Shown here: in pieces, positions 1-28,447 of the stretch
Position numbering within the stretch: the first letter of the stretch is position 1
Layout of the letters: each line of letters opens with the position of its first letter
Assembly: GCA_025362135.1 (NCBI GenBank)
Contig: JANYHZ010000118.1
Coordinates: forward strand, 1-43,490
DNA from: Betaproteobacteria bacterium
GTDB lineage: Bacteria > Pseudomonadota > Gammaproteobacteria > Burkholderiales > Usitatibacteraceae
Length of the DNA: 43,490 nucleotides
Direction: 5' to 3'
Notes under the pieces: generated by a model
What the model saw: only the letters and a program-made list of their open reading frames with translations
The model's database searches: none
What the model was told of the DNA's origin: nothing
Translations under genes and position numbers: made by a program

Positions 1-337
1 GAAAGCGGTCATTTCTTTTTCACAACCTGCATCATGCACGCGTCGGTAAAGATGACGTTGAAGCTGTGTAGGCACCATTTGTTCGCAATGGACACAAGTC
101 CGCAGCATCGGTTGCACGCCCCGATTTTCCAATGACTGCAAATCCGAGTTTGTATGACTGGTTTAGAGCGGCGGCTAAGTCGGCAGTGGGTCGAAAGCGG
201 TCAGTCGCGAGCGTAGCCAAAACGTAACGCCGGGCAAGTGCGGCGTAATTCTCCTGAGACTTCGCGTAACTTCGAATGCAAATTGGCGTGTGTTGCAAGA
301 GTCTGATTGAGAAAGAAAACTTACTTACGGCTGATTC
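1..337. other. Left edge, no recognisable gene
   Basis: I see no supportable coding region here. The 11-mer GAAAGCGGTCA occurs twice, at 1-11 and 193-203. The only long open frame, on the minus strand, reads through the tRNA fragment at 338-381 and gives the peptide pattern typical of antisense tRNA translation, so it is not a gene. If the tRNA fragment is an attachment-site scar, this stretch would be the end of an element lying mostly outside the window. That origin is inference. Confidence 0.4.
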
Positions 338-381
338 TTTTAATCCGTTGGTCGCAGGTTCGAATCCCGCACGGCCTACCA
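338..381 (+). pseudogene. 3' fragment of tRNA-Lys(UUU), possible att site
   Basis: The 44 nt from the anticodon loop (CTTTTAA, anticodon TTT) through variable loop, T-arm (loop TTCGAAT) and 3' acceptor strand to an encoded CCA (379-381) match a tRNA-Lys 3' half. The 5' half is absent: the 76 nt ending at 381 contain no AGGCCGT to pair with the acceptor strand ACGGCCT, and the bases before the anticodon loop do not pair with TCCGT. The T-stem has one A-C mismatch. A crossover in the anticodon loop that leaves only the 3' half is a classic result of tyrosine-integrase insertion into a tRNA gene. A decayed copy lies near 9535. Confidence 0.7.
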
Positions 382-390
382 GTATCATCA

Positions 391-419
391 AGGGCTCAGG
401 AGAAATTCTGGGCCCTTTT
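391..419 (+). terminator. Intrinsic terminator after the tRNA fragment
   Basis: AGGGCTCAG (391-399) pairs with CTGGGCCCT (408-416) over nine base pairs, including one G-T, with an 8-nt loop and a following T-run. It begins ten bases after the CCA, as expected for the original tRNA transcription unit, so it appears to have been carried along with the tRNA end. Confidence 0.75.
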
Positions 420-563
420 CATTTCTACCGAGCCAAACCGCAATTGGCCCTTGTCGAAATAGACTTCCGCCGCGATAATCTTCACACATTCGCCGCGCGA
501 GAAGGGTGCCGTACTACTTCAAAATTCGCTCGGTCATTCTCTAAACTTTTCTGGAGCGCCAAG

Positions 564-1046
564 TTGAAAAATAATAATTGGATCGGACTGTGCGTGTTTT
601 TTGGTGTGGCTACCTTTGGTGCCTCAGGTCTCAGTTACAGCGCAGAGATTGTCGGACTTGGAAACAAATGCCTCGACGTCAGCGGAGGCGAAAATGCCAA
701 CGGCACCAATGTCCAGATGTGGAAATGCGACGCTGGAAACGAGAACCAGAATTGGACTTTCGATGGCGGGAGAATTGTATGGACCGGCACCAAGAAATGC
801 CTGGATGTCAGCGGCGGCGACAAAGCCAACGGCACCCAAGTTCAAATTTGGCAATGCGAAGCTGGAAACGAGAATCAGCAGTGGACTCTCGATAACGGGA
901 AAATAGTGTGGACAGGCACAAAGAAGTGTCTTGATGTCAGCGGCGGCGGAACCACAAATGGCACGAAGGTCCAAATTTGGCAATGCCAGGCCGGAAACGA
1001 AAATCAGGCATGGACGATCAAGGGCCCGCGTACAAAGGCGAGGTGA
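564..1046 (+). CDS. Secreted ricin-type beta-trefoil lectin
   Basis: The product is a 160-residue protein made of a signal peptide and a single beta-trefoil. Residues 1-27 are a hydrophobic leader with likely cleavage after SYSA. The rest is three tandem 43-residue repeats starting near residues 35, 78 and 121 (DNA about 666, 795, 924), each carrying KCLDVSGG, NGT-x-VQ-x-W-x-C and AGNENQ-x-W. These are Ricin_B_lectin signatures including the Q-x-W motif. No catalytic domain is attached, so a secreted carbohydrate-binding role is likely, but the ligand is unknown. I chose TTG at 564 because GGAG at 553-556 sits seven bases upstream and the leader starts there; the frame stays open farther upstream only through the tRNA fragment. 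Confidence 0.8.
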   Translation: MKNNNWIGLCVFFGVATFGASGLSYSAEIVGLGNKCLDVSGGENANGTNVQMWKCDAGNENQNWTFDGGRIVWTGTKKCLDVSGGDKANGTQVQIWQCEAGNENQQWTLDNGKIVWTGTKKCLDVSGGGTTNGTKVQIWQCQAGNENQAWTIKGPRTKAR

Positions 1047-1410
1047 CGCACGAGTAAGTTGTGTTGACGGGGTTATCGTCAACCTGACAAATAGCACCTG
1101 TCGAAAGAACGCAACGTTAAAACAAATGGGCGTACTTCGCGTAGCGTTCAACTATAACGCGCCACTTCCAGCCGCCTAATTCCGTTCCTCGATCATAACG
1201 TCAGGAAACAAGTGATGGAATAAGTACTTGGGCTCGTCACACGATGTTCAAGATTGACGATCCTCAGTGATTGCAACCAAACCCTCGGCAGAATAAAAGA
1301 CGAGCTTGAACTCTCAGTGAAAAGTTGAAAACTCAAGCATTGGTGCGGTGTTACAACCGTAAACGCCTGAAACACCCCGCCAGCGCTAGCGTCTTACGAT
1401 TGTTTCTCGC
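1047..1410. other. Intergenic, hairpin and dispersed repeat
   Basis: No gene is supported. A perfect 7-bp hairpin, GTTGACG (1063-1069) with CGTCAAC (1077-1083), follows the lectin stop by 16 bases but has no T-run, so it is at best a weak transcript end. One copy of the dispersed palindrome occupies 1330-1395, just 3' of the minus-strand MFS gene. Confidence 0.5.
1330..1395 (-). repeat. Dispersed intergenic palindrome, copy 1
   Basis: The left arm (1330-1352, containing GCGGTGTT) and right arm (1371-1395, AACACCCCGCCAGCGCTAGC onward) are imperfect inverted repeats. The right arm read on the minus strand (AGCGCTGGCGGGGTGTT) matches the left arm of the copy at 27755 (AGCGCTGGCGCGGCGTT). It lies directly downstream of the stop of the MFS gene that ends at 1411, a 3' position shared by all five copies. 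Confidence 0.6.
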
Positions 1411-2673
1411 CTAATTATCGATTGTCTTTTTCGGTGACTCGGCCTCTTCGTGCGGCTTCACATGCCGGAACATAACCAGTAATAGCACGTCATAGACGAT
1501 CTTCAATGCGCCCGCCACGACCAGCGGCCAACCAAAAGTTGAGATGCCGAGCAAATAGCCGGAGATGAATGGCCCGACTGCCGAGGCAAGACTGCGCGGT
1601 ACTGACGTGAGACTGGCTGCGGCCGGACGTTCTGCGGGCGTGACCACCGACATCACGTAGGAACTGCGCGTCGGCACATCCATTTGCGACAGGGCGCTGC
1701 GAATAAACAGCAGTACGATCACCCAGTTGAGATCACCGATGAAGGGGATGAGTAGCAGGCAAAAATTTGCCGGCAGATGGGTGAACACCATCGTGTTGAC
1801 CAGCCCGATGCGACTGGCAATGCGCACCGCCACAAGATAGGAGAGTGCCGTCAGCAAGCCGGTCCAAAAAAATATCTGGCCCGCCGTCGCCAGCGATAAG
1901 CCGAAGCGCTGATACAGCCAAAGTGCGACCATGGACTGCACCACAAAGCCGCCGCCAAATGCATCCAGTGAGAACAGACCCGCCAGCAGATACACCGTTT
2001 TCTTCGACTTGCCGAGCGGTGCATTGGGCTGGGTTGGCGCAGCAGCCGATTTTTCCGCTCTCGGCAGTCCGCGATAGGCCAGTGCCGCAAGCAAGCCCAG
2101 CAACGCGTAAAGCAGGAACATCGCCTGGATTGATACCTTCGCTGAGAGCCCCAGCACCGTCGCGATGCCGCCCGGCAGCACCACGGCCAATGACCCCAGC
2201 GCTGCGAGGAGCGATCCGACCAGACTGTAACGAGCGAACATGGCGGTCCGGTTTTTGTCGGCCACCATCCGCGACATCACGGCATGTTCGAGCGGCAGAA
2301 AAACGCTGACGTCGCCGCTGGACGGATTGAGGGTGCCGACGAAAGCGATCAGGAGCAACGGCCAGAAATCGCTCACGGTGGCAAAGCCGAGGCCCGTGCC
2401 CGCCATTAGCACGGTTGCCATCAGCAGCAGCGCGCGATGCGAATACCGATAGGCATGCAAGCCCACCACCAAGGTCAGGATGCCCGAGCCCAACAGCGTT
2501 GCCGTCGCGATAATGCCAACCTCCATCGGACCGAAGCCGAGCTCAAGCAGATAGAGCGGCAGCAACAAGCTGACAAAGCCATCACCGAAAGCGCGAAGTC
2601 CTTTGGCGATCAGCAGCCGATTGACGTAGTTGGAATTCATGCGGGGCGGTTCAGTTGCACCGGGGACAAGCAT
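1411..2673 (-). CDS. MFS transporter
   Basis: This encodes an integral membrane protein of about 420 residues with roughly twelve hydrophobic segments and the layout of the major facilitator superfamily. The first helix region contains AKGLRAFGDGFVSLLLP, and a central hydrophilic loop (RGLPRAEKSAAAPTQPN) separates the two six-helix halves. The substrate cannot be told. The start at 2673 lies four bases after the stop of the gene upstream, suggesting translational coupling; the alternative ATG at 2640 (MNSNYVNRL) would give 409 residues and fits the usual N-terminus equally well. Neither start has a good ribosome-binding site. It forms a pair with the exported protein encoded at 2678-3301. Confidence 0.8.
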   Translation of the reverse strand: MLVPGATEPPRMNSNYVNRLLIAKGLRAFGDGFVSLLLPLYLLELGFGPMEVGIIATATLLGSGILTLVVGLHAYRYSHRALLLMATVLMAGTGLGFATVSDFWPLLLIAFVGTLNPSSGDVSVFLPLEHAVMSRMVADKNRTAMFARYSLVGSLLAALGSLAVVLPGGIATVLGLSAKVSIQAMFLLYALLGLLAALAYRGLPRAEKSAAAPTQPNAPLGKSKKTVYLLAGLFSLDAFGGGFVVQSMVALWLYQRFGLSLATAGQIFFWTGLLTALSYLVAVRIASRIGLVNTMVFTHLPANFCLLLIPFIGDLNWVIVLLFIRSALSQMDVPTRSSYVMSVVTPAERPAAASLTSVPRSLASAVGPFISGYLLGISTFGWPLVVAGALKIVYDVLLLVMFRHVKPHEEAESPKKTIDN

Positions 2674-2677
2674 GGCC

Positions 2678-3301
2678 TCAACGGGCGGATGCGCCGTAAC
2701 TGAAATCGTCAAAGGCGGTGACACTGTCCGCTTTTGTCCAGATGCCGACCGCGCCCGCGCGGGCAATGTGGGAATCCGTCACTTCAATGTAAGCCTTGCC
2801 ATCGAGCAGGACGCGAATGGTTGCGCCATGAAATTCGACGCGCAGCGTGTGCCACTCCTTTCCGGCGACGGGTGCGTCGACATACTTGATGGTTTTGCGG
2901 CGGCCTGCCTCGGTGTAATAGAGCGAGACATTGTTTTCCAACGCATTGCCGCGGGCGACGTAGTAATTGTCGCCGTCCTTCCAGCGCCATATCACACCGC
3001 CGACCTGGTCCTCCTTGCCTGCCAGCGGTTTGAATTTCACTTCGACGAAGCCGTCGCTGATCAGGGCGTCCTTCAGCACACACCACGGGTAGGTCCCACT
3101 GCCGCTTTGTTTCAGAACATTCGGGCTGCTCGGCGCGCTCGTATCGGCCTCGACAGTCCAGACCGGCTTGCCGGTGCCGGTCGCGCCCGCGATCCAGCCG
3201 GTCGGAAGCGCGCCCGGACGATCTTTATCGAAGTTTATTGTCTCGCCGTGCGCAGTGGCAGCGAGTGCAGCGAACGCAATGGCCATGATGATTCTCTCCA
3301 T
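2678..3301 (-). CDS. Exported LamG/3-keto-disaccharide hydrolase-like protein
   Basis: The 207-residue product has a short signal peptide (cleavage likely after ATAHG) followed by a single domain rich in beta-strands. Segments such as GGVIWRWKDGDNYYVARGNA, EWHTLRVEFHGATIRVLLDG and GAVGIWTKADSVTAFDDF resemble the concanavalin-like fold of DUF1080/3-keto-disaccharide hydrolase proteins. This points to a periplasmic or secreted sugar-binding or sugar-processing protein; activity is not proven. The start is supported by AGGAG seven bases upstream. The stop is four bases before the MFS start, so the two form a likely operon and the transporter may handle a related compound. Confidence 0.7.
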   Translation of the reverse strand: MERIIMAIAFAALAATAHGETINFDKDRPGALPTGWIAGATGTGKPVWTVEADTSAPSSPNVLKQSGSGTYPWCVLKDALISDGFVEVKFKPLAGKEDQVGGVIWRWKDGDNYYVARGNALENNVSLYYTEAGRRKTIKYVDAPVAGKEWHTLRVEFHGATIRVLLDGKAYIEVTDSHIARAGAVGIWTKADSVTAFDDFSYGASAR

Positions 3302-3700
3302 AATTGACTCCTATTGTGAACTGTCCAAGCTCTGGCAGACCGCTATAGGAGGGACCAGGCGAAATCCCGGGTTCATTTCCGACCTGGGCCACTACAGTCT
3401 CGACGGCCACAACTTAACCTATTTTTTTGTTATGCGGATGAGCGTCGCCACGCACACTGGCTAACTCCAGAGAATGGGGTTTCAGAATGAAGTTACATAA
3501 ATCCGGTACTGCAATGCCCGTCGTTTCAGGCGTGCTGTGTTCGGCTGGGCGAGGCAATACGCAGGCTGGCGCTATGTGCCTCACACGAACGCCATTCGAG
3601 AAGAATGAGCCACAAAAAAGAAATTCGATGGCCCTATTGCATTTTATAATGCGAATCATTATCATTTGCGTATAGAAGCGTCCATCTCTGAAAGAATCAC
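3302..3700. other. Divergent intergenic region with iron promoter
   Basis: This 399-bp region separates the minus-strand LamG-like gene from the plus-strand iron operon. The right end carries the Fur box and the likely -10 at 3645-3663. Short open frames here lack family resemblance and ribosome-binding sites, and I do not regard them as genes. Confidence 0.5.
3645..3663 (+). promoter_or_regulatory. Fur box overlapping the iron-operon promoter
   Basis: The 19 bp match the classical Fur consensus GATAATGATAATCATTATC at 16 positions, with the right half perfect (AATCATTATC). The first six bases, TATAAT (3645-3650), are a perfect -10 hexamer, so bound Fur would block polymerase. The site is 38 bases upstream of the cupredoxin start. 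Repression by Fe(II)-Fur is inferred from family knowledge. Confidence 0.85.
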
Positions 3701-4021
3701 ATGCGAAAGCTCACCGCTCTACTTGTTTGTACATTTTCAATAACGGCATTTGCTGCCGATATGGAAGTGAAGCTGGTTATCGAGAATCATCGTTTCCAGC
3801 CAGAAACGGTAAGTGTCCCCGTCGGCCAAAAGATCAAGCTGATCATAGAGAATCGCGATGCGACACCCGAAGAATTCGAGAGCCATCCGCTGAATCGCGA
3901 AAAGGTCATTCCGGCCAAATCCACCGCCACTGTCTATATCGGCCCATTAGCTGCCGGCAGTTATCCGTTTGTGGGCGAATTTAATGAAAAGACGGCCAAA
4001 GGCGTCATCGTTGCGAAATAG
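3701..4021 (+). CDS. Periplasmic cupredoxin-like protein of the FTR1 operon
   Basis: The 106-residue protein has a signal peptide (residues 1-18, cleavage after AFA) and a cupredoxin_1-type domain. VENHRFQPETVSVPVGQKI-like strands are followed by EEFESHPLNREKVIPAKS, the pattern seen in EfeO N-terminal domains and in FTR1-associated cupredoxins. In such systems the protein is thought to assist iron handling in the periplasm before transport by FTR1. It is the first gene of a Fur-controlled operon, 11 bases upstream of the permease gene. The start has a weak GAAAG at a suitable distance. The exact metal bound is not known. Confidence 0.8.
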   Translation: MRKLTALLVCTFSITAFAADMEVKLVIENHRFQPETVSVPVGQKIKLIIENRDATPEEFESHPLNREKVIPAKSTATVYIGPLAAGSYPFVGEFNEKTAKGVIVAK

Positions 4022-4032
4022 GAGACACAACC

Positions 4033-4872
4033 ATGTTTGGCACTTCACTGATTGTATTTCGCGAGGTACTTGAAGCTGCAATGATCATTGGAATCATTGC
4101 CGCAGCAACCCAAGGTATTCCGACGCGCGGGCGGTGGCTGGTTGGCGGGACATTACTCGGACTCGCGGGCTCGGCGCTTGTTGCGGCGAGCATGGAGGTC
4201 ATCGCGCAATTTGCCGATGGTGTCGGCCAGGAAGTTTTCAATGCCTCAATTCTTGGGGTAGCAGTACTAATGCTCGCCTGGCACAGCATATGGATGGCCA
4301 GTCGTGGTCGAGAGATCGCAACCGAAGCGCGGTTGATCGGAAGCGCCATACGCGGCGGACAAAAAAATCTTTCCATGCTGCTTGTCGTTATTGCCATCGC
4401 GGTGCTTCGCGAGGGAGCAGAGACCGTATTGTTTCTCTATGGTGTTGCCGTTTCCGGATCCTCCACTTTTTTGGAAATGATAACCGGCGGTGCACTGGGG
4501 CTTGCGGGCGGTGTGGCCGTGGGTGTAACGCTATATCTTGGACTTTTGCGAATCCCGGTACGCTGGTTTTTCACGGTGATTTCCGCGTTGGTGCTTTTGC
4601 TCGCTGCCGGAATGGCCGCACAAGCAGCCCGGTTCCTGGTGCAAGCCGATCTTTTGCCAAGCCTGAAATCGCCGCTGTGGGACGTTTCTGGCGTGCTGCC
4701 AAATGAATCCGCAGTTGGCGCCGTTTTGCACGGGCTCGTTGGCTACGATGCGCATCCGGCTGGCATTCAAGTTGTGTTTTATGTCACCGTTGCCGTTGTG
4801 ATCGCAGCATGTATGCGGCTAGCAAACCAAAAACAATCTGTATTCAAATCTCAACTTCAAGTCACCACATGA
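4033..4872 (+). CDS. FTR1-family iron permease
   Basis: This 279-residue inner-membrane protein has about seven transmembrane segments and both hallmark R-E-x-x-E motifs, REVLE at residues 10-14 and REGAE at 126-130, which bind iron during transport in the FTR1/EfeU family. GGAG precedes the ATG at the normal distance. It sits between the cupredoxin gene and an outer-membrane barrel gene whose ATG overlaps this stop as ATGA (4869-4872), so the three are translationally linked. The Fur box upstream supports induction by iron limitation. No ferroxidase or peroxidase partner such as EfeB is present in the window. Confidence 0.92.
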   Translation: MFGTSLIVFREVLEAAMIIGIIAAATQGIPTRGRWLVGGTLLGLAGSALVAASMEVIAQFADGVGQEVFNASILGVAVLMLAWHSIWMASRGREIATEARLIGSAIRGGQKNLSMLLVVIAIAVLREGAETVLFLYGVAVSGSSTFLEMITGGALGLAGGVAVGVTLYLGLLRIPVRWFFTVISALVLLLAAGMAAQAARFLVQADLLPSLKSPLWDVSGVLPNESAVGAVLHGLVGYDAHPAGIQVVFYVTVAVVIAACMRLANQKQSVFKSQLQVTT

Positions 4873-5615
4873 AGAAACAGATCCTGTCCTTCCTTACCGC
4901 CGCGTGCGCGATTTCCACTTCCGTTTGGGCTGATCCCGCTGACTATGTAAAAGTCCCGTCCGTTGAATTCGGCGAACGCGAGCTGGAACTAAAATACGGC
5001 ACAAGCAAGTTGACGGACGGCGAAGGGCGCATTTCTGCGGGCACGTTTGGCTTGGGCTATGGCGTCACGCCGAACTGGTTTACCGAGGTCTATGTCAAAT
5101 ACCAAAAGACACCTGACGAGCGCACACGATTTGACGCCATCGAATGGGAAAACAAATTCCTGCTTACCGAAACAGGCAAGTACCCGATTGACCTTGGCGT
5201 GTTTGTCGAACTGGAGGTACCTCGCGACCGCAGGGAGGGATTTGAATTCCGATTCGGCCCGCTCCTCCAAACCGATTTTGGCCGCATCCAACTCAACTCC
5301 AACTTCTTTCTAAAACGGCAGGTTCGCGTTGGTGCCAACAGTGACCCGCAGGTAACGGAATTTCACTATCAATTACAGGCCAAGTATCGGCTCATGCGGG
5401 AATTCGAATTTGGCGTTCAGGCATTCGGTGAGCTTGGAAAATGGAACCATTGGGATTCGAGCGATAAGCAAAATCATCGAATCGGCCCTGCCATCTTTGG
5501 GAAATTTCCAACTGGAGGGAAGGAAGCGATTAGATACGATTTTGCCTGGCTAATCGGTGCCAGCAGGGTTGCTCCGGATTCGACAATTCGCCTTCAACTA
5601 GAATATGAATTTTGA
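4869..5615 (+). CDS. Putative outer-membrane beta-barrel of the iron operon
   Basis: The 248-residue protein has a clear signal peptide (MKKQ start, cleavage after SVWA). The rest is built of alternating amphipathic strands, many ending in aromatic residues (GYGVTPNWFTEVYVKYQK, FHYQLQAKYRLM) and finishing with LQLEYEF, a C-terminal Phe as in outer-membrane barrels. I do not recognise a characterised family. The four-base start/stop overlap with the FTR1 gene indicates co-translation, so a role in passing iron or a small iron complex across the outer membrane is plausible. That role is inference from context only. Confidence 0.65.
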   Translation: MKKQILSFLTAACAISTSVWADPADYVKVPSVEFGERELELKYGTSKLTDGEGRISAGTFGLGYGVTPNWFTEVYVKYQKTPDERTRFDAIEWENKFLLTETGKYPIDLGVFVELEVPRDRREGFEFRFGPLLQTDFGRIQLNSNFFLKRQVRVGANSDPQVTEFHYQLQAKYRLMREFEFGVQAFGELGKWNHWDSSDKQNHRIGPAIFGKFPTGGKEAIRYDFAWLIGASRVAPDSTIRLQLEYEF

Positions 5616-5692
5616 TTGGCAACGGATCATGCTTTGTCGGTTGACGAGTTTCAGCCACCTGCGAACATACGAAAAAACGTTGCCCCTCAATC

Positions 5693-5719
5693 ACCATAAA
5701 TCATAGTGATCAGTATGGT
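5693..5719. promoter_or_regulatory. Nested palindrome upstream of antitoxin gene
   Basis: ACCATA (5693-5698) and TATGGT (5714-5719) form an inverted repeat that almost shares its centre with an inner one, ATCA (5700-5703) and TGAT (5707-5710). It ends 18 bases before the Phd-like start. A possible promoter, TTGCCC (5680-5685) and CATAGT (5702-5707) with a 16-bp spacer, overlaps it. Phd/YefM proteins commonly repress their own promoters through such palindromes, so this is a candidate operator. Confidence 0.5.
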
Positions 5720-5737
5720 CATTGCAACGAGAACACT

Positions 5738-5926
5738 ATGATTGCTGAAACTGGCGCGGTCAACTTCAGACAGAATCTGGGCGAAATGCTCAACCAACTG
5801 CAGTATCGGCACGACAGCGTGGTAATCAACAAAGACGGCAAGCCCGTGGCCGCGCTGGTTGGCGCCCGCTTGTTTGAACGTATTCGCTTCACAGTCGCTC
5901 GTGCGAGGGCGACTCGATCAAAGTGA
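5738..5926 (+). CDS. Phd/YefM-family antitoxin, apparently solitary
   Basis: The 62-residue protein matches the N-terminal DNA-binding part of Phd/YefM antitoxins: an A-x-x-NFRQNLGEMLNQLQ segment (compare the NFSELL pattern of the family), then DSVVINKDGKPVAALV, the conserved signature. The C-terminal, toxin-binding part is short and basic. No toxin gene (RelE, Doc, PIN or similar) is adjacent; the next gene is parA, 100 bases downstream. It may be an orphan antitoxin or a repressor reused to control parA. The palindrome at 5693-5719 would suit autoregulation. Confidence 0.75.
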   Translation: MIAETGAVNFRQNLGEMLNQLQYRHDSVVINKDGKPVAALVGARLFERIRFTVARARATRSK

Positions 5927-6026
5927 GGGTGACAGACAGTTACTGAGCTCTCAAGATACGAGCGCAAAACCCACAATCCCCCGATATGCCAAAATGCAAA
6001 GCGACAATTTCCGCAACGGAGGCGAT

Positions 6027-6854
6027 ATGAAACGGGTTGTGTTCAATCAAAAAGGCGGCGTCGGCAAGTCCACCATCACCTGCAATCTGGCGGCCATCAG
6101 CGCCGCTCGAGGCAAGCGCACGCTGGTGATCGACCTTGATCCGCAGGGTAACTCGACCCAATACCTGCTTGGCGCGGGTGCTTCCGAACCGGGACCGACG
6201 TTGGCGGATATGTTCGAGCAGATGTTGCACTTCAAGCTGGTGATGAAAAAGACCGGGGAGTTTGTCCGGGAAACGCCGTTTGAGAATTTAAGCGTGCTGG
6301 CTTCGCATCCTTCGCTGGGAGAACTCGCCGGAAAATTGGAATCGCGCCACAAGATCTACAAATTGCGCGAGGCGCTTGATGAGGTGACGGACGAATATGA
6401 CGCAATCTACATCGATACGCCACCGGCGTTGAATTTTTTGACGCTCTCGGCGTTGATCGCAGCCGACACCTGCCTGATTCCATTCGACTGCGACGACTTC
6501 GCGCGCCGTGCGCTGTACACGCTGATTGAGAATGTCGCTGAAATCCGCGCGGATCACAACGCCGATCTGGCCATCGAGGGCATCGTAATCAATCAGTTCC
6601 AACCGCGCGCCAACCTGCCGCAAAAAATTGTAAACGAACTGATCGAAGAGGGCCTTCCGGTCCTTGCCGCTTGCCTGTCCTCATCCGTCAAAGTGAAGGA
6701 ATCGCACGAACAGGCATTGCCCTTGATCCACTTGGTGCCGAATCACAAGCTGACGCTGGAATACGAGGCGCTTTACAAAGAACTGGAACGGGCAATGCGA
6801 AAATCCAAAAGCGGCTCGACTGGCGGTAGCCGTAAGCGTTGGGTGCCGGTCTGA
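6027..6854 (+). CDS. ParA-family partition ATPase
   Basis: The 275-residue ATPase begins MKRVVFNQKGGVGKST, giving a deviant Walker A (KGGVGKST, residues 9-16). It continues with LVIDLDPQGNST (Walker A') and IYIDTPPALN (Walker B). The start is fixed by GGAGG four bases upstream. Such proteins move DNA or other cargo by dynamic binding to the nucleoid. No parB or parS-like repeat is seen beside it; the only neighbour on the left is the Phd-like gene. The C-terminus is basic (RKSKSGSTGGSRKRW). It could be a remnant of a plasmid or island maintenance module, or an orphan ParA for cargo positioning. Confidence 0.85.
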   Translation: MKRVVFNQKGGVGKSTITCNLAAISAARGKRTLVIDLDPQGNSTQYLLGAGASEPGPTLADMFEQMLHFKLVMKKTGEFVRETPFENLSVLASHPSLGELAGKLESRHKIYKLREALDEVTDEYDAIYIDTPPALNFLTLSALIAADTCLIPFDCDDFARRALYTLIENVAEIRADHNADLAIEGIVINQFQPRANLPQKIVNELIEEGLPVLAACLSSSVKVKESHEQALPLIHLVPNHKLTLEYEALYKELERAMRKSKSGSTGGSRKRWVPV

Positions 6855-7000
6855 TATTTATTTTGATTGCTTCCGATGTCCGGGAAACTTCCGCATTTGA
6901 AGCTGGTGCGCACTATCAAGCATGCGAGTCCTCCCGGTAGCATAATAACCTGAGCGTGATGCATCCGACCCGCGAGTGACACTGTGAGGAGCGCATAACC

Positions 7001-9517
7001 ATGTTGCCCAAGCCAGATATCGCCAACCCTCACAACGGGCACGAAACGACAAACGCGGGCGCGCGCGATCAGTCGCGCTTCGATAACGAACTCATCGAGG
7101 CAATTGGCAATCCCGTTTACGCCAAGGATCGCGAAGGCAGATTCATCTGTGTCAACCGCGCCTGGGAGCAGTTCTACGGAATCAGTCGCGAAGACTGTGT
7201 CGGCAAGACCGTGCATGAGGTTTTTCCAAAAGACGCTGCCGACGCGCACGCCGTGCAGGACGCGGCATTGCTCGCCGGTTCCGGCCCACGCGTATACGCG
7301 CTGCAAGTGCGAGGTGGCGACGGCGAAATGCACGATACCGTCCATTACAAATCGGTTTTCAGCCACACCGACGGCACGCCCGCAGGTGTCATCGGCAACC
7401 TTACTGACGTAACTTCGCTTAAACGCACCGAGGCAAAGCTCGCGAACACGCGCGAGCGACTGCATTTTGCATTGCAGGGATCGGGGCTTGCCCTGTGGGA
7501 CGCAAACTTTCAAAGCGATGAAGTGTATTTCAGTGCGGAGTGGGCGCAGATGCTCGGCTTTCCGCCGGAGGAAACGGCGATAGACACCAAAGCGCTGATC
7601 GCACGCGTCCATCCCGATGACCGCGAGCGTACCGGTAAGGCGATCAACGATGTGATCAGGGGTACCAGGTCAACCTACCGGGAAGAGCATCGATTGGCAA
7701 CGCAATCGGGCGACTGGAAATGGGTTGAAAGCCGCGGCATGGTTGTGGAACGCGACGCACAAGGCACCGCCGTCCGAATGACCGGCACCAATGCCGACAT
7801 TACCGAGCGCAAGACTGGTGAAACCTCGTTGCGCGCCAGCGAATCGCAGCTACGGCTGGTGATCGAAAACGTCCCGGCGTTGATTGCCTATCTTGACGTG
7901 GACCGGCGCTATCGTTTCGTCAACAAGCGTTACGCCGAATTCTTCGGCTACTCGCCGGAGGAGATCATCGGCAAGAGTGGCATCGAGGTGATCGGCGAAC
8001 ACGCTTACCGTGAGTATGTCGGGTACTTCGACGAGGTCATGGCAGGCAAGCCCGTCTGGTATCAGCGCCAGGTGACGTTGAAAAACGGTGAAAGTGGTCA
8101 CATTGAAGTCGCTTTGGTGCCCCATATTGCCGATGACGGCCAGGTGATCGGGGCGTATGTGCTCTCGCGCGATATCACCAAAAGTGTTGACGCCGAGGAA
8201 CGCATCCGCCACATGGCGCGGCACGATGCCCTGACTGACCTGCTGAACCGGCGCGAATTTGAACAGCGGCTGCTGCACGTATTGCTGGATTCGCAGGAAA
8301 ATGGTAACGAACTGATTTACTTGAACATAGACCAACTCAAGATCGTCAATGACAGTTGCGGCCACGCGGCGGGCGACGAATTGCTGCGCCAGGTCGCTGC
8401 GGTCCTTCGCGATACCATCGCGGCCGACGATCTACTGGCGCGCCTGGGTAGCGATGAGTTTGGCGTGCTGCACAAGGACACGGCACCGGAGTCGGCGCGC
8501 GAGCTGGCGGAAGCACTTCGTCAGGCAACACAGGCGCTGCGGTTTGCGTGGCAGAACCGTTCATTTCCGGTCAGCATCAGCATCGGCGTGGTACTGCTCG
8601 CGGGCCAGAGTGTCGATGAACTGCTGACCATGGGCGACGCCGCGTGCCGTATTGCCAAAAACCAGGGCCGCAACCGCATCCATGTTTACCATCGCACTGA
8701 CGGCGAACTCGCCTTGCGGCGTAACCAGATCGAATGGCGTTCGCGCATACTCGACGCGCTGGAGCGCAACCGCTTCCAGCTCTACTGGCAGCCTATCGCG
8801 TCGCTTCGTACGCCCGTCCTGATGATCGAGCATTACGAAGTGCTGTTGCGCATGCTGGACGAGAGCAATGATCCGATTGCACCCATGGCGTTCATTCCCA
8901 CCGCCGAACATTTCGACCTGATGCCGGCGATAGACCGATGGGTGGTGTCAGCAGCGCTGGCAGCGCATTCGCCGCTGGGCACAGGGCACGAGTGGCCGCG
9001 CGAATCGATTCTCGCCATCAACCTGTCCGGCGATACGCTGGGGGACAAGTCTTTCCCCGCGTTCGTGCGCGGCGAGCTTGAACGCTTCCACGTCAATCCC
9101 CGGTCGCTCTGCTTCGAGATTACCGAGACCGCCGCAATTTCAGATATCGCCAGCGCCAGAAGTTTTATCAAGGAGTTCAAAAACATCGGCTGCCAGTTTT
9201 CGCTCGACGATTTCGGCAGCGGCATGAGTTCGTTCGGCTACCTGCGCAATCTGCCGGTGGATTATTTGAAGATCGACGGCAGCTTTATTCGCAACATCTG
9301 CCGCGATTCGATTGACCTCGCCATGGTTGAATCGATCAACCATATCGGCCACATCATGGGCAAACAGACGATCGCCGAATTTGTCGAAGACGATCCCACC
9401 ATCGCCCTGCTTAGAAAAATCGGCGTGGATTGCGCGCAAGGTTACGGCATTGGCGAACCGAAACCGATGCACGCCGCACCTGTGCCGACCGCATCGGCAG
9501 CAGGCTTACGGCCTTAG
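7001..9517 (+). CDS. PAS-PAS-PAS-GGDEF-EAL cyclic-di-GMP protein
   Basis: The 838-residue protein has no evident membrane segment. Three PAS domains cover about residues 25-140, 150-270 (RVHPDDRE, PAS_3 type) and 275-400. A GGDEF domain starts near 405 (RHDALTDLLNR) and has the signature changed to GSDEF at about 483, with no R-x-x-D inhibitory site before it. The EAL domain (about 585-830) has EVL at about 613 in place of EAL and keeps ITETAA, LDDFGSG (about 736), YLKIDG and AEFVE. This favours an active c-di-GMP phosphodiesterase with an uncertain, possibly regulatory, cyclase domain. GAGGAG precedes the ATG. It stands alone downstream of parA. Confidence 0.9.
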   Translation: MLPKPDIANPHNGHETTNAGARDQSRFDNELIEAIGNPVYAKDREGRFICVNRAWEQFYGISREDCVGKTVHEVFPKDAADAHAVQDAALLAGSGPRVYALQVRGGDGEMHDTVHYKSVFSHTDGTPAGVIGNLTDVTSLKRTEAKLANTRERLHFALQGSGLALWDANFQSDEVYFSAEWAQMLGFPPEETAIDTKALIARVHPDDRERTGKAINDVIRGTRSTYREEHRLATQSGDWKWVESRGMVVERDAQGTAVRMTGTNADITERKTGETSLRASESQLRLVIENVPALIAYLDVDRRYRFVNKRYAEFFGYSPEEIIGKSGIEVIGEHAYREYVGYFDEVMAGKPVWYQRQVTLKNGESGHIEVALVPHIADDGQVIGAYVLSRDITKSVDAEERIRHMARHDALTDLLNRREFEQRLLHVLLDSQENGNELIYLNIDQLKIVNDSCGHAAGDELLRQVAAVLRDTIAADDLLARLGSDEFGVLHKDTAPESARELAEALRQATQALRFAWQNRSFPVSISIGVVLLAGQSVDELLTMGDAACRIAKNQGRNRIHVYHRTDGELALRRNQIEWRSRILDALERNRFQLYWQPIASLRTPVLMIEHYEVLLRMLDESNDPIAPMAFIPTAEHFDLMPAIDRWVVSAALAAHSPLGTGHEWPRESILAINLSGDTLGDKSFPAFVRGELERFHVNPRSLCFEITETAAISDIASARSFIKEFKNIGCQFSLDDFGSGMSSFGYLRNLPVDYLKIDGSFIRNICRDSIDLAMVESINHIGHIMGKQTIAEFVEDDPTIALLRKIGVDCAQGYGIGEPKPMHAAPVPTASAAGLRP

Positions 9518-9601
9518 GCTCCATCCCTTCGGCACGAATTCAGCACAACTTACCCGTATCATCAAGAGGTCGGGAAGAACGCTGAGTCCCTTTTATTTTC
9601 C
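9512..9601 (+). repeat. Decayed second copy of tRNA-Lys end plus terminator
   Basis: Aligned without gaps at an offset of 9,174 nt, this stretch resembles 338-427. CGAAT (T-loop) and scattered T-arm/acceptor bases match, GTATCATCAAG (9556-9566) is identical over 11 bases to 382-392, and about two thirds of the following terminator bases match, ending in CCCTTTT. Many differences are transitions. The terminator stem is reduced to GGGA/TCCC. It separates the EAL protein gene from the next MFS gene, so it may mark the right end of an old 9.2-kb insertion. Confidence 0.55.
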
Positions 9602-9616: not shown

Positions 9617-10825
9617 TTGAGCACGTCCTTCAGCACCCTGCGCCGCATACCTCCCGCCATCTGGGCGCTCGGCTTCGTCAGTCTGCTGATGGATGTTTCT
9701 TCGGAACTGATCCACAGCCTATTACCCGTGTTTATGGTCACGTCGCTCGGCGCGAGTATGTTCGCTGTGGGATTAATCGAGGGTGTAGCGGAAGCCACTG
9801 CGCTGATCGTAAAAGTATTCTCGGGCGCGTTGAGTGACTACTGGGGCAAACGTAAGCCACTCGCGGTGATGGGTTATGGGCTCGGCGCAGTTTCCAAACC
9901 GCTGTTCGCGCTGGCCACATCGGTGGATTTTGTCGTCGCGGCCCGCTTGCTGGATCGCGTCGGCAAGGGCATCCGTGGCGCACCGCGCGATGCGTTGGTG
10001 GCGGACATCGCGTCGCCGGCGCTGCGCGGTGCCGCGTTTGGCCTGCGCCAATCGCTCGACACCGTGGGTGCGTTTCTCGGCCCGCTGCTCGCCATGGGGC
10101 TGATGGTTTTGTGGGCCAATGATTTCCGCGCTGTGTTCTGGGTGGCGGTGATCCCTGCTTTTCTGGCGGTGGGCCTGCTCTTCTTCGGTGTGCAGGAGCC
10201 GGAAAAACCGCAAGGCGCCAAACGCGTCAATCCCATCCGGCGCGAAAATTTGCGGCGCTTGCGCAAAGCCTACTGGTGGGTTGTGGCCATCGGCGGCGTT
10301 TTCACACTGGCGCGATTCAGCGAGGCGTTTCTCGTGTTGCGCGCCCATGAGGGGGGGTTGCCGGTCGCATTTACGCCGCTGGTGCTCGTCGGCATGAATG
10401 TCGTGTACGCGGTGAGCGCGTATCCGTTCGGCAAGCTCTCCGATTCGATGAGCCACACACGGCTGCTTGCGTTCGGTCTCGTCGTGCTCATCGCAGCCGA
10501 CGCCGCCCTCGCGTACAGCAATCATTGGGCCTGGATGAGTGTCGGCATTGTGCTCTGGGGTTTGCATTTGGGATTGACGCAAGGGCTGCTTGCCACCATG
10601 GTCGCCGACACCGCACCGGACGATTTGCGCGGCACGGCGTATGGATTTTTCAATCTGGTGAGCGGGGTAGCGCTGCTGGTTGCCAGCGGATTGGCGGGCC
10701 TCATCTGGGACCGGTTGGGTGCGTCATTCACGTTTCTCGCGGGCACGCTATTCTGTGTCGTCGCGCTGGGCATGATTGCTGCGGCACCAGGCATTTCCCA
10801 CAGTAACGCAAAACAAAATACGTAG
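9617..10825 (+). CDS. MFS transporter
   Basis: The 402-residue protein has about twelve hydrophobic helices, an MFS signature after helix 2 (SGALSDYWGKRKPLAVMGYG) and a hydrophilic mid-loop (QEPEKPQGAKRVNPIRRE) between the two halves. It resembles drug/small-molecule efflux carriers of MFS_1, but the substrate is unknown. The start is TTG at 9617, chosen because translation from there gives a normal cytoplasmic N-terminus; there is no clear ribosome-binding site. The transcript runs toward the convergent czcA gene, and a copy of the dispersed palindrome separates the two stops. Confidence 0.8.
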   Translation: MSTSFSTLRRIPPAIWALGFVSLLMDVSSELIHSLLPVFMVTSLGASMFAVGLIEGVAEATALIVKVFSGALSDYWGKRKPLAVMGYGLGAVSKPLFALATSVDFVVAARLLDRVGKGIRGAPRDALVADIASPALRGAAFGLRQSLDTVGAFLGPLLAMGLMVLWANDFRAVFWVAVIPAFLAVGLLFFGVQEPEKPQGAKRVNPIRRENLRRLRKAYWWVVAIGGVFTLARFSEAFLVLRAHEGGLPVAFTPLVLVGMNVVYAVSAYPFGKLSDSMSHTRLLAFGLVVLIAADAALAYSNHWAWMSVGIVLWGLHLGLTQGLLATMVADTAPDDLRGTAYGFFNLVSGVALLVASGLAGLIWDRLGASFTFLAGTLFCVVALGMIAAAPGISHSNAKQNT

Positions 10826-10892: not shown

Positions 10893-13800
10893 CTACGTTG
10901 CGCCAGAAGACGCAAGTGGCTCGCGGGCGAAGAACGCACGATAGAGCGTCGGCAACACGAACATCGTAAGCAAGGTCGCCGAGACCAATCCGCCAATAAC
11001 CACGACTGCGAGCGGTCGCTGCGTCTCCGCGCCAATGGCATGCGAAAGCGCCATCGGCAGTAAACCAAACATCGCCAGCAGCGCGGTCATCAGCACCGTC
11101 CTCATCCTGACGATCGAGCCCTGCATCACGACCTGCTCAATCGGCATCCCGGAATCGCGCAACTGATTGAAATAAGTCACCATCACCACGCCATTGAGCA
11201 CCGCTTGCCCAAACAGGGCAATGAAACCAATCGCGGCAGAGACCGACAGTGGAATATCCAGTATCAGCAACGCCAGAATGCCGCCGATCAATGCGAACGG
11301 AATATTGGCGATGATGAGCGTTGCGCATTTGACGGATTGAAACGCGTCAAATAATAAAATGAAAATCAGCAGGATGGACAAGGGCACGATCCATGAAAGC
11401 CGCTTCATGGCACGTTCCTGATTTTCAAATTCGCCGGACCACGACACCTCGTCGCCTTCGCCCAGCTCTCCGAGTTCTTCTACGCGCGCCTTCATGTCCT
11501 TGACCACACTACCCATGTCGCGATCGCGAATGAACACGCCAATGGAGACCACGCGCCGACCGTTCTCCCTCGCAATGTTCATGGCCCCGGAAACGGATTT
11601 GAAGCGGGCCAGTTGCGAAAGCGGAACCTGCGCGCCATTGGGACTCGCGATCAGCAGATTAGGCAGGTTTGACAATGCGCGTTCGCTGCCCTTGAGGCGA
11701 ACGACCACGCTAAAATGTTTCTCACCCTCCCACAGCTCCGATGTTGCCTTGCCGGCTACCGCCGTTTCGATCAGGTCCTGAACGTCGCCGATATTGATCC
11801 CGTATCGCGCGGCGGCCGCACGATCTATGTCCAGCACATATTGCGGCAGCGATCCGGCACGATCAATGAAAGCACGGGTGACGCCCGGCACAGTCTGGAT
11901 TCGCCCCAGAATGCGCGTTGCGTTGGCGGTGAGGCGATCAAGATCGTCACCACGTACTTTGATGACGATCTGCCCGTCTATCTGTGAAATCGACTCGAGA
12001 ACATTGTCGCGGATGGGCTGAGAGAACGAAGGTTCCACACCAGGCAACGTGGACACAGCCTCATCCATCTCACGGATGAGATCTTCCTTTTTCTTGCCGG
12101 ACCGCCATTCGCTTTCCGGCGCCAGCTCCACGTAAATTTCCATCGCATTGAATATTTTCGGATCGGTTCCGTCATCCGGACGGCCCACTTTCGATATGGC
12201 CGTCCGTACTTCGGGCACGCCCCTCAATTTTTGTCGAATCACTCGTGCCTGCTCCTGCGCTTCCGCCGGCGAGACCGAGGGCGGCAGGAATACGTTGACC
12301 CAGATAGACCCTTCGTTCAACTCCGGCAGAAACTCACTGCCAAGCTGCGTCCCGGCAAGCAGACTCAACGCGAGGGCGGCGACCGCAACACCAATAACGG
12401 TACGGGGACGCCCGATAGCCCAGCGAAGCTTGGGCTCGTACCAGCTCTTCAACCATGCAACCAGTCGATTGTCACCGTGCGCAATGTCTTTTTTGAGGAA
12501 TATATATGTCAGCAGCGGTACCAGCGTCAGTGAAAGAATGAGTGAACCCACCAACGCTGAAGTCACTGTCCAGGCCATCGGCGAGAAAATTCGCCCCTCG
12601 TGCCGTTGCAATGTAAAGATGGGAATGTGTGCGGCGATGATGATGATCATCGAAAATAACGTCGGGCGGCCCACCTCGACAGTGGCATCGAGGACGGTCT
12701 TCAGACGAGTATTTTTATCCGCCAAACTGGATCCTTTCAACTCCGCTAGTTTGCGAACAATGTTTTCCACTACAATCACCGCGCCATCGACGATAATGCC
12801 GAAGTCCATTGCGCCGAGCGACAGCAGATTGGCCGGTATACCGACCAACGTAAGTCCGGTGAACGTGGCCAGCAACGCCAGCGGAATAATTGCCGCGACG
12901 ATCAACGCCGCACGCAGATTGCCCAGAAACAAAAACAGAATCAGCGTCACCAGCAGCGCGCCTTCGATCAGATTGGTAAACACGGTTCTCAGTGTCTTGG
13001 CGATCAACCAGGACCGGTCATAGTACGGAATGATCGCCACCCCTTTTGGCAGCACCGCACTGTTGATGTAGGCGATTTTCTCCTTGATGCCAGCGAGCAC
13101 CAGGGAGGGGTTCTCGCCTTTGCGCATCACGACAATGCCATTGACGATATCGTCTACATCGTCCTGACCAACCAGACCTTGCGGGGGCGCACCGGCAATC
13201 CGAACATCCGCAACGTCGCGAACCAGAATCGGCGTGCCTTTGTTTTCGGCAACCACGACCTGGCTTATATCGGTCGACGTTTTGAAACTGCCCAAACTGC
13301 GTACCAGGTATTGCTGGCGTCCCTGTGTGACGCCGCCGCCGCCAGCGTTGGAATTTGCGCGCTGCAAGGCCGTGAACAACTGATTGAGCGTGAGCTTGTA
13401 GTCGCGCAATTTCGAGAGGTTGGGATTTACCTCGTACTGCTTGATGGAGCCGCCCATCGTGACCACATCCGCCACACCCTGCACCTGGCGCAATTGCTTT
13501 TCCACCACCCAGTCCTGCAACGTTCTCAGTTCCTGCGGGGATTGGCCTTCACCACGCAATCGAAAACGAAAGATTTCACCAATGGCCGTGGAGAGTGGTG
13601 CCAGTTGGGGTTCAACACCGGGTGGCAAGTCGATGCCACGCAGACGTTCCAGCACTTGTGCGCGTACGACCTGATCGTTGGGTTTGTCGTTGAACGTGAG
13701 GATAATGTATGACAGTCCGAACTGGGTGTGGGAGAACAGCCGCACCATATTCGGCGTTGATGACAAACTCGTCTCGATGGGAATCGTAACCTGCCGTTCC

Positions 13801-24009: not shown

Positions 24010-25131
24010 TCACGCCTCCTGCATCAACTTCCAATACTGATATTTCAACGTCGCCGCACACCCGAAGATCATCGCGGCAAGCGCAAAAAATGCGCCTGCC
24101 GCCAACGTAGACAAGCCACTCACCCCTTGGCCAATCGTGCAGCCCATCGCGGTGACGCCACCCGCACCCATCAGCACCGCACCGATAATGTGGTTGCCTG
24201 TGTCTTCGATGCTCGCAAAGCCTTCCCAGCGAAAACGTTTGGTCATCAGCGAGTGAGCCAACGAGCCCAAAATCATGCCCAGCGTGGTGGCAATACCGAA
24301 CGTGACGACGAGTGATTTATCACTCCACAACATCAGCAGTTCCAGGCTGTAGCCATAAGGCGCGACGAACGTGAGTGATTCTGCGGCCCGGCTATTGGTG
24401 CCGAAAAACATCATCTCCAGCGTTTCGGCGTTTTCGCCGAAACCGATGTGCGCGGTGATGTACCAGCCTGAGACGACCGCGAGGCCATAGCCAAGCCCGC
24501 CCAGCCATGCGTCCAGACTTACACGAAAATCGCGGCTCATCAGGACAAAAATCAGCATCGGCCCGGCGATGAGGCACGCCAGAACAATCTGCGCGGTTTT
24601 TTTTGTTGTGTTTAACAGTGGCCCCAGCAGTGCGCCCAGCTCTTGGGTGGCGATACCGTGTTGGGAAACATCGATGGCGACCGCATCGAGCGTGTTGATA
24701 CGCCATACACCGAACAAGCCTTTCATTGTCATGTAGGCAGCTATCGCGAGAAACGCAAAAACCACAATCGATTTCAGATTGCCGCCGCCGATGCGAACCA
24801 GCGTGCGGCTCCCGCAACCGCTTGCCAGGGTCATTCCAACGCCGAACATCAATCCGCCGACAACGTAGGAAAGCCAGGTGATGCTGGGGCGTGTGTAGAA
24901 CGCTTTGGAAAGATCGATCAGGTCAGCCGCATAGAGCCCCTGCGCACCGAGAATTGCAATCGCCATCGCCAAAACCCACATCCGCATGCGGGTGAAGTCG
25001 TTCATGTTGACGATATCGGATACCGCGCCGAGCGTACAAAACTGGGTTCGTGCGGAGATCGCGCCGAGGATGAAAGCGACGATAAATCCGAGCCAGGCGA
25101 CGACATGAGCGAGATTGGTGGTGCTGTTCAT
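24010..25131 (-). CDS. YeeE/YedE-family sulfur-compound transporter
   Basis: The 373-residue inner-membrane protein has about nine hydrophobic helices and the conserved cysteine motifs of the family: FCTLGAVSD near residue 32, LASGCGSRTL near 105 and GCTIGQGVSG near 335. Studied relatives (TsuA) import thiosulfate through these cysteines. The start at 25131 leads directly into the first helix; its ribosome-binding site is poor. No TusA-like gene is adjacent. With fccAB elsewhere in the window it fits a sulfur-oxidising or sulfur-scavenging lifestyle. Confidence 0.87.
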   Translation of the reverse strand: MNSTTNLAHVVAWLGFIVAFILGAISARTQFCTLGAVSDIVNMNDFTRMRMWVLAMAIAILGAQGLYAADLIDLSKAFYTRPSITWLSYVVGGLMFGVGMTLASGCGSRTLVRIGGGNLKSIVVFAFLAIAAYMTMKGLFGVWRINTLDAVAIDVSQHGIATQELGALLGPLLNTTKKTAQIVLACLIAGPMLIFVLMSRDFRVSLDAWLGGLGYGLAVVSGWYITAHIGFGENAETLEMMFFGTNSRAAESLTFVAPYGYSLELLMLWSDKSLVVTFGIATTLGMILGSLAHSLMTKRFRWEGFASIEDTGNHIIGAVLMGAGGVTAMGCTIGQGVSGLSTLAAGAFFALAAMIFGCAATLKYQYWKLMQEA

Positions 25132-25186
25132 AGGGGTTGTACCTGATGCGAAACGAGTGCTGCCAGAGAATTGCCGCTGCGCAAAG

Positions 25187-25286
25187 TGCCCTCTACCGGC
25201 CTTCGGCCACCCTCTCCCGTAAACGGGCGGGGGATCAGGTTTTACTCCCCTCGCCCGTTTACGGGAGAGGCGTGGGAGAGAGGGCA
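25187..25286. repeat. 100-bp nested palindromic element
   Basis: A perfect 19-bp inverted repeat, CCTCTCCCGTAAACGGGCG (25211-25229) with its complement (25252-25270), encloses a loop in which GGGGA and TCCCC can also pair. Outside it TGCCCTCT (25187-25194) pairs with AGAGGGCA (25279-25286), and the left flank holds a small GGCCTTCGGCC hairpin. It looks like one of the widely scattered palindromic miniature elements of proteobacterial genomes. It lies between the starts/stops of yeeE-like and queC. Confidence 0.8.
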
Positions 25287-25385
25287 GCTATCGCGTCGGC
25301 AGATTTGGAGCCTCCATTTTACCGTCGCCCCTTCTGCAATAAAAACAGCGACGGCTAATACTTGAAAGCAGAACAGAATAACGAA

Positions 25386-26075
25386 TCAGGCGTAGCGAGT
25401 CGGGTCGGCGAGACCCGCCTCAACAAAGCCGTCCTTGCGCAAACGGCACGAATCACACACGCCACAAGCGCGGCCATCGACGTCGGCCTGATAGCACGAC
25501 ACCGTCAACGCATAGTCGACACCCAACCGCGTGCCTTCAACCACGATGTCGGCCTTGTTCATGTGAATGATCGGGGTGTGAATGACCAGTTCCGCACCCT
25601 CCACGCCCGCCCGGGTGGCCAGGCGCGCCATGGTTTGGTACGCGGCAATATATTCCGGTCGACAATCAGGGTAGCCCGAATAATCCACTGCGTTCATGCC
25701 GGCGAAAATATTTGGTGCGCCCAACGTTTCGGCCCACGCGAGGGCGAGCGACAGGAAAATCGTGTTCCGCGCAGGGACATAGGTAATCGGGATGCCGGTC
25801 GTGGGAGAGGTCGGCACGTCAATATCTTTATCGGTCAACGCGGAGCCGCCCCAGCCGGTGAGATCGAGCTTGATCACACGGTGCTCCTTCGCGCGAAGCG
25901 ACTGCGCGACACGAGCCGCCGCTTGCAATTCCGAGCGATGTCGCTGTCCATAGTCGAACGACAATGCGTAGGTTTCAAAGCCTTGCTCGTGCGCCATCGC
26001 CAGCACGGTCGCGGAATCGAGCCCGCCGGAAAGCAGAACGACTGCGCGGAGCGTATTCGCTTGCCGGGTTTTCAT
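25386..26075 (-). CDS. queC: 7-cyano-7-deazaguanine synthase QueC
   Basis: The 229-residue ATP-dependent enzyme converts 7-carboxy-7-deazaguanine and ammonia to preQ0 in queuosine synthesis. It shows the PP-loop SGGLDSA near the N-terminus, [11 protein letters not shown], and the zinc-binding C-terminal [21 protein letters not shown] at 26075 overlaps the queE stop as ATGA, which decides the start over an in-frame ATG seven codons upstream. It is the last gene of the long minus-strand run. Confidence 0.95.
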
Positions 26076-26707
26076 ACGCCCCGCTTCTCGCCCCAAATAA
26101 TTTTGTGCAATTGGATTTGCATGCGCACCCGCAAGCCGTCGCGCAGAATCCAGGTCGCAAGCTGTTCGTAGCGCACTTCATTGAAGGCCGGCGAAAATAG
26201 TACCGGTGCAAGGCTGGCGAGTTTTTTTTCTTCGAGTAAAGCAACTGCCCAGCCGTAGTCGGCTTCGGAGGTGATGACGAATTTTATTTCGTCATCGCGC
26301 GTTAACAAAGGCAAATTTTCCCATCGATTCTTGTCAACTTCACCCGAGCCTGGCGTCTTGATGTCAACAATGCGGGATACACGAGGATCGACCGCAGAAA
26401 TATCGATCGCGCCACTCGTTTCCAACGATACCGAATAGCCGAGGTCACAGAGTTTCGCAAGTAGTGTGAGGCAATTTTTTTGTGCCAGCGGCTCGCCACC
26501 GGTTACACAAACGGTTTTCGTCTTATGCTGCGCAACTTCTGCAATGACGTCGTCGATGGTGCGCGTTTTGCCGTCGTGGAAGGCATAGGCGGTATCGCAA
26601 TAGTCGCAGCGCAGTGGACATCCTGTCAGACGGATGAACACCGTTGGCAGCCCAACACGACTCGATTCACCTTGCAGCGAAAAGAAAATCTCATTGATGC
26701 GCAGCAT
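26072..26707 (-). CDS. queE: 7-carboxy-7-deazaguanine synthase QueE
   Basis: The 211-residue radical-SAM enzyme makes 7-carboxy-7-deazaguanine. The cluster-binding motif is [12 protein letters not shown] (C-x3-C-x2-C), preceded by [20 protein letters not shown] and followed by CVTGGEPL, typical of QueE. ATG at 26707 begins [14 protein letters not shown], the normal family start, with no strong ribosome-binding site. It is 101 bases downstream of cpoB and overlaps queC by four bases. I looked for a preQ1 riboswitch in the spacer and saw none. Confidence 0.94.
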
Positions 26708-26808
26708 ATTCACACGTACGCTGGCCGGGGTGGCTCTCTTCCCTTCGGCTTTGCGGATCGTCGCAGCAGGAATCCTGGTCAGCGTGCTCACGGCTTTACT
26801 TGGAAGGC

Positions 26809-27651: not shown

Positions 27652-27754
27652 ATTTCGGTTTGTTCTTGCAAGTAGAAAGTGGAATTGTCTACACGATGAC
27701 GATGAGCATGGCCAAAAAAATGGCTCCCGCAGTGTCCAAGGAAATGAGTTCAAA

Positions 27755-27810: not shown

Positions 27811-27824
27811 CGATCTACGTATAT

Positions 27825-28367: not shown

Positions 28368-28447
28368 GTTTTTCTCCAGATAATTGACGGGTACGTTCTA
28401 CAAACACGGACTAGTTTATGCCTATTTTTGCCCTGCGATGGTTTGTC

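Follow-up and report, generated by a model that had tools for sequence, protein, structure and literature searches.

A worn tRNA-Lys end likely marks the far side of an old island behind a newer insertion in an uncultured Burkholderiales genome

Results

Genes and features of the locus

The window analysed here is one whole contig of 43,490 nucleotides from a fragmented MAG (G000; 3.26 Mb, 292 contigs, 86% complete). Its left part carries a displaced tRNA-Lys(UUU) half with its terminator (copy A), a block of genes, and a second, worn tRNA-Lys end (copy B), followed by the MFS transporter gene that anchors the comparison with relatives (Table 1).

Table 1 Features in the left part of the window, with the evidence for each
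Feature	Position	Strand	Evidence or remark
End arm of newer insertion, immediately left of the tRNA fragment	284..336	+	Aligns with the DNA that precedes, on the left, the displaced tRNA-Lys halves of G002 (L035) and G007 (L038)
Copy A: displaced 3' half of tRNA-Lys(UUU), anticodon loop to CCA, newer junction	337..381	+	45 nt identical to the intact tRNA-Lys(UUU) of G001
Intact tRNA terminator hairpin, then T tract	390..417	+	-19.3 kcal/mol, z -5.12
Ricin-type beta-trefoil lectin gene, between terminator and integrase fossil	504..1046	+	PF14200, 5.5e-39; start uncertain
Integrase fossil	1129..1259	-	tblastn, DNA similarity, shuffles
MFS gene inside the block	1411-2766		Neighbour gene at 2678-3301
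Cupredoxin, FTR1 iron permease and outer-membrane genes (cargo)	3701..5615	+	Pfam
Phd/YefM-type antitoxin ORF (cargo)	5738..5926	+	PF02604, 2.2e-8
ParA-like ATPase (cargo)	5859..6854	+	PF13614, 1.2e-39; start uncertain
PAS-GGDEF-EAL protein (cargo)	7001..9517	+	Pfam
Copy B: decayed tRNA-Lys 3' end with ruined terminator, probable older junction	9535..9601	+	47/67 to copy A; G005 has a near-intact copy in synteny (L032:12863-12929)
MFS transporter gene adjoining copy B on its right, anchor of comparison	9617..10825	+	Same place: 86% aa (G005), 89% aa (G010)

The original prediction listed a lectin, an iron operon, an antitoxin, ParA and a c-di-GMP protein between the two tRNA ends. Pfam bears out every gene on that list, from which the MFS gene inside the block, its neighbour and the integrase fossil were missing. 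The neighbour has a weak 3-keto-disaccharide hydrolase match, and the pair (1445-3301) recurs in this genome, with 76% identity, at C30:1506-3368. No toxin partner for the antitoxin was found among the ORFs scanned, nor any intact integrase among the block ORFs scanned with Pfam. Stretches homologous to the iron genes occur on other contigs in G005, G010 and G011, and the complete genome G002 has no match, at most nine candidates having been scored per genome.

When 428-9520 was searched in 31 genomes (13 of the genus, the window genome included), at least 29 gave some match among the best nine candidates per genome, and within the same candidates the matches were mostly short or fell on ParA, GGDEF-EAL and transporter genes located elsewhere. 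Among the matches listed, G010 alone has pieces of the cargo at the tRNA-Lys site; G001 and G032 are represented there by an integrase stretch only.

Match between the two tRNA ends

Aligned without gaps on the same strand of the window, at an offset of 9174, positions 361-427 are identical to 9535-9601 at 47 of 67 bases. The similarity spans the final ~20 bases of tRNA-Lys(UUU) (15/21 identical), a spacer (10/10), the stem-loop of a terminator that is ruined in copy B (16/26) and its tail (6/10). The sequence GTATCATCAAG, identical in both copies, is spacer after the tRNA end and not tRNA proper. Of the 20 differences, 15 are transitions, a bias already noted in the original prediction, and the K2P distance between the copies is 0.41.

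The runner-up match to the left copy on either strand of the window reaches 34/67. The left copy was also shuffled 1000 times by dinucleotides; the best scores of these shuffles in the window had a mean of 33.2 and a maximum of 40, and none attained the observed 47. In a BLAST search of the whole assembly, copy B was the sole other match of the left copy at E ≤ 0.001 (E 3.9e-4). The second worn copy that had been proposed at this offset is thus confirmed, and it also passes the shuffled control named beforehand as its check. Its proposed extent was 9512-9601; the two copies are homologous only from about 9535 on.

Copy A has a strong terminator, and that of copy B (-7.4, z 0.31) folds no better than its own shuffles. 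In the window, ARAGORN called no full tRNA, Rfam gave no match at gathering thresholds, and a third tRNA end was looked for and not found. Copy B is a worn copy of the tRNA-Lys end, and we consider it likely that it forms the outer boundary of an old insertion.

The newer insertion at the left edge

The insertion-end arm left of copy A is common to the window genome, G002 and G007. This likeness of the left edge to the junction arms of the other two genomes indicates that the window starts within such an insertion. Positions 337-423 are 97% identical with G005 and 98% with G010. Searches of the 86%-complete assembly, in which the window contig starts inside the newer insertion, gave no intact tRNA-Lys(UUU); thus, this insertion is seen by its right end only. 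The single full-length tRNA match in the assembly (C231) was rejected as tRNA-Lys(UUU), as it is tRNA-Met. More broadly, window 300-440 is matched in 58 of 61 genomes, and some of these matches are other tRNA genes, e.g., tRNA-Arg.

An integrase fossil and its relatives

A 49-nt stretch of the window (1130-1178) is 86% identical to a sequence that lies beside the tRNA-Lys genes of G001. In G001, the matched stretch encodes the C-terminal region of a tyrosine integrase that is intact (PF00589, 1.3e-29; phrog_1, 2.4e-62) and adjoins a tRNA-Lys(CUU) gene, with the UUU gene beyond the CUU gene. By tblastn at relaxed settings, residues 298-319 of this integrase are found at window 1194-1129 and residues 291-303 at 1259-1221 (E 2.85e-4). 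The two pieces are in order, with a 6-residue overlap in the query, and make up a short, interrupted C-terminal remnant with the tyrosine motif and one stop, 748 bp from copy A. The better piece scores 32.3 bits, which none of 200 shuffled windows reached, by a small margin (maximum 30.4). Pfam gave no match for the 23-residue fossil peptide.

An integrase 69% identical to that of G001 stands beside tRNA-Lys(UUU) in G032, and G002 has a truncated piece, 52% identical, beside its own tRNA-Lys(UUU). In G007, the 4.4 kb surrounding the intact tRNA-Lys gave no match to the G001 integrase. The two intact integrase genes examined, those of G001 and G032, both stop inside the tRNA terminator hairpin; therefore, the element carries a terminator. 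The terminator is duplicated along with the tRNA end because the element brings the two together.

The tRNA-Lys site in related genomes

G005 has an intact tRNA-Lys (L032:10585-10660) with its terminator and, 2.2 kb further on, a second 3' end that also has a terminator (~12859-12929). This second copy directly precedes the counterpart of the window MFS gene at 9617..10825, has 3 differences in 62 from the intact tRNA-Lys and terminator of its own genome, and is far less worn than copy B. The G005 block holds a glycosyltransferase and an acetyltransferase instead of the window cargo.

In G010, a truncated tRNA-Lys with its terminator is followed by ParA, a GGDEF-EAL tail and the MFS gene. ParA is 84% identical in amino acids to that of the window and there too lies between the tRNA end and the MFS gene; of the PAS-GGDEF-EAL protein the tail alone survives at the counterpart place (95% aa identity over the tail). 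Copy B was not found between the EAL tail and the MFS gene of G010, and the truncation of the EAL gene makes its loss there by deletion likely. An HTH/HipA-type toxin-antitoxin pair (L033 255-2386) sits left of the displaced tRNA-Lys half of G010, inside the newer insertion.

These two genomes bear on the proposal that relatives would lack 338-9556, and on its converse, that finding the block in relatives without a tRNA-like sequence would speak against an island. Where the site is assembled, G005 lacks the block and G010 has part of it, namely ParA and the EAL tail, without copy B; the adverse pattern is thus present in part.

The complete genome G002 has ~12.1 kb between its intact tRNA-Lys and a displaced 3' half with terminator, including AbiEi/AbiEii-type genes and transposases. 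G009 provides the empty site, in that the genes after the G002 displaced half directly follow tRNA-Lys. For the block of the window itself, the genomes compared gave no empty tRNA-Lys/MFS site. In both G005 and G002, the displaced fragment is oriented as the intact gene. The intact tRNA-Lys(UUU) (L175 1434-1509, C103) and the displaced half (L038 427-560, C30) of G007 are on different contigs, and the terminators behind them are unlike; if the two contigs are the two sides of a single insertion, the terminator that came with the element was a different one. In all, 5 of the 13 genus genomes (G000, G002, G005, G007 and G010) show displaced tRNA-Lys ends at such a site, several others being under-assembled there.

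At the DNA level, the MFS gene right of copy B was unmatched in 6 of the 13 genus genomes and matched over 45-150 bases only in 3 more. The idea that this gene is a general neighbour of tRNA-Lys was rejected: ARAGORN called a tRNA-Lys in 0 of 80 MFS loci, which were taken from genome_contigs and of which many are cut short by contig ends. Four tRNA-like genes were called in three of these loci, and the sole match to copy A was on G010's own contig.

The tRNA-Lys gene lies beside a sulphur-transport/TolB/RuvB region in G001, G003, G011, G012 and G054 (another family), and downstream of a nucleoside transporter in G002, G005, G007 and G009. That region (24010-33180 in the window) has no tRNA in the window or in G005; the tRNA-Lys copy of G005 faces it from the other side, which we read as a rearrangement around tRNA-Lys. 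The gene may have moved from one of these two locations to the other within the genus. Elsewhere, G012 (L041 9203-9590) has intact tRNA-Lys(UUU) and tRNA-Lys(CUU) genes and then two further CUU-like 3' ends, ~140-165 bases apart with GC-rich spacers, i.e., very small tandem units. A REP-like repeat of ~30 bases, often in close inverted pairs, has many copies across the genus, with sites in G005 (L032 10453-10489) and on contigs of G000, G001, G008 and G012.

Arm-like repeats and the crossover point

Just past the terminator, G002 has paired exact 9-bp repeats 11 bases apart, and G003 has the same pair, one exact and one with a mismatch. At the right junctions of G002 and G007 the repeat occurs once, as an exact copy 113-114 bases left of the core, and it was not found at the empty G009 site. 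G001 has a different repeat pair with the same spacing. We infer that these repeats are integrase arm sites. The window lacks the G002 repeat, also when one mismatch is allowed, and this counts against reading the block as an island. In 20 kb of G005, the sole match of the G001 arm-like repeat (≤1 mismatch) lies 13 bases right of its counterpart of copy B.

The match to the tRNA is clear from the T loop on in copy B and the G005 copy, and from the anticodon loop in copy A and the junctions of G002, G007 and G010; two integrase types may therefore have used this tRNA-Lys gene. Likewise, the insertion that left copy B and the one that carried the fossil may differ in crossover point. In the 24 bases before the core, copy B agrees with the tRNA at 7 and the G005 copy at 10; the two agree with each other at 13, a value reached by 39 of 20000 single-base shuffles. 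These counts may still be compatible with decay of a longer core.

Discussion

We regard tandem accretion at tRNA-Lys, with a decayed CIME-like island behind a newer insertion, as the likely history of this locus. The original prediction had suggested an older insertion beside a newer one at the same tRNA, and this is the best fit to the syntenic G005 copy, the integrase fossil, the shared arm and the G002/G009 pair. According to this history, the integrase of the old island would have inserted it inside the tRNA-Lys(UUU) gene. The island would have brought its own tRNA 3' end and terminator, restoring the gene on the left, and the displaced end and terminator would have been left at the far side as the right-hand attachment scar, copy B. 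This spare tRNA end, under no selection, would then have decayed, and the island would have lost its integrase down to the fossil and retained cargo such as ParA and the GGDEF-EAL gene. Later, a second element would have entered the restored gene at the anticodon loop, giving copy A at 337-423. We further infer that the events came in this order, that the fossil and copy B stem from one insertion, and that copy B was the chromosomal end from the outset, as opposed to the end of an even older island.

The content of the block has turned over, with ParA and the EAL tail in G010 vs the glycosyltransferase and acetyltransferase in G005. That ParA and the EAL tail are common to the window genome and G010 at this place suggests that this part of the block probably predates the split of the two. 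Half the fourfold-site distance of the MFS gene is 0.36 between these genomes (0.49 between the window genome and G005), and the distance between copies B and A, measured over 67 bases, is in rough agreement with such an age of the island. The G005 copy is much fresher, so that a single shared old event is insufficient without conversion or a second insertion; the fresh copy would be the product of either a later separate insertion or conversion.

Two alternatives are variants of tandem accretion rather than departures from it. In one, the duplications of the window genome and G005 are separate events caused by related elements at the same tRNA gene. We give this an even chance. The two G005 copies have CATGA, the window copies CATCA (a single base), the G005 copies differ from each other at just 3 of 62 positions and the block contents differ; the 13/24 agreement left of the core fits shared descent instead, but related elements could share an arm. 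The other variant, towards which we are rather more sceptical, posits three or more layers, with the MFS gene right of copy B being cargo of an older island and copy B an internal junction of the array. It draws on the patchy DNA matches of the MFS gene in the genus, on the tRNA-Lys-end match confined to G010's locus among the 80, and on the arm-like repeat match beside the G005 copy. Against it, a third tRNA end is missing from the window, and the arm-like match is a single 10-mer with a mismatch that has no equivalent at that place in the window.

Explanations other than tandem accretion fare worse. If the tRNA end and terminator had simply been duplicated without an integrative element, the presence of the terminator in both copies, and not just a short tRNA core, would be accounted for, but the integrase fossil, the shared insertion arm, the filled and empty pair of sites and the integrase genes overlapping the terminator would not, and we hold this to be very improbable. 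Chance similarity, for which one could cite a match of 70% over 67 bases, is rejected with near certainty, as 0/1000 shuffles reach that match and a near-intact copy is syntenic in G005.

Within tandem accretion, we put forward tentatively, and with some doubt, that each insertion swaps the working tRNA-Lys terminator for an element-borne one, which would be the 3' end of the integrase gene. The integrase genes of G001 and G032, which end in the hairpin, and the unlike terminators of G007 speak for such a swap. The copies within one genome are alike in G005 (59/62) and G002 (40/44). A rule that they are always kept alike is contradicted by G007, if its contigs are the ends of one insertion, and the idea that the element always carries a host-matched terminator was dropped, as the two G007 terminators are unlike. 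Among the titles listed in literature searches, none deals with exactly this matter of terminators in tRNA attachment repeats, and we do not claim that it is unreported.

Several known systems resemble the proposed arrangement. In the portions of the Islander paper drawn on here, tRNA islands are found by a tDNA and a displaced fragment, crossovers are classed as anticodon loop (A) or T-loop/junction (J), and tandem arrays are described, 125 of them of two or more (PMC4383910). The window shares with those islands the displaced tRNA 3' fragment in the same orientation, both crossover classes and the proposed tandem array; unlike them, as far as those portions describe, the duplicated unit here includes the terminator (PMC4383910). 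The integrase filter of Islander would be expected to reject the window island, its integrase being a fossil. The cited section of a review on CIMEs describes integration, decay to an element without integration genes, and then accretion, when another element enters that gene (PMC5704250). The same three steps are proposed for the window, where, unlike the case in that section, one att site is badly decayed (PMC5704250). The block may be a CIME, in that its integrase is a fossil and both ends are present, but the right end differs at 20/67 bases. The ssrA arrays of Dehalococcoides, in the cited part of their description, have many displaced ends downstream of one gene and some islands without integration genes (PMC3146451). 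They share with the window the T-loop insertion point, and differ in having a serine recombinase and the tmRNA gene where the window has a tyrosine integrase and tRNA-Lys (PMC3146451). The locus is thus a new, well-preserved example of a known way of genome growth and not a new mechanism.

Worn scars of this kind would escape searches that require an integrase gene between the tRNA and its fragment. G001 and G032 add two cases in which integrase gene and tRNA terminator overlap, a terminator thereby being part of the island end; if the proposed swap is true, island arrivals would rewrite tRNA-Lys termination. With its fresh end, worn end and integrase fossil, the locus would preserve a layered and roughly datable record of insertion at one tRNA gene of an uncultured member of the Burkholderiales.
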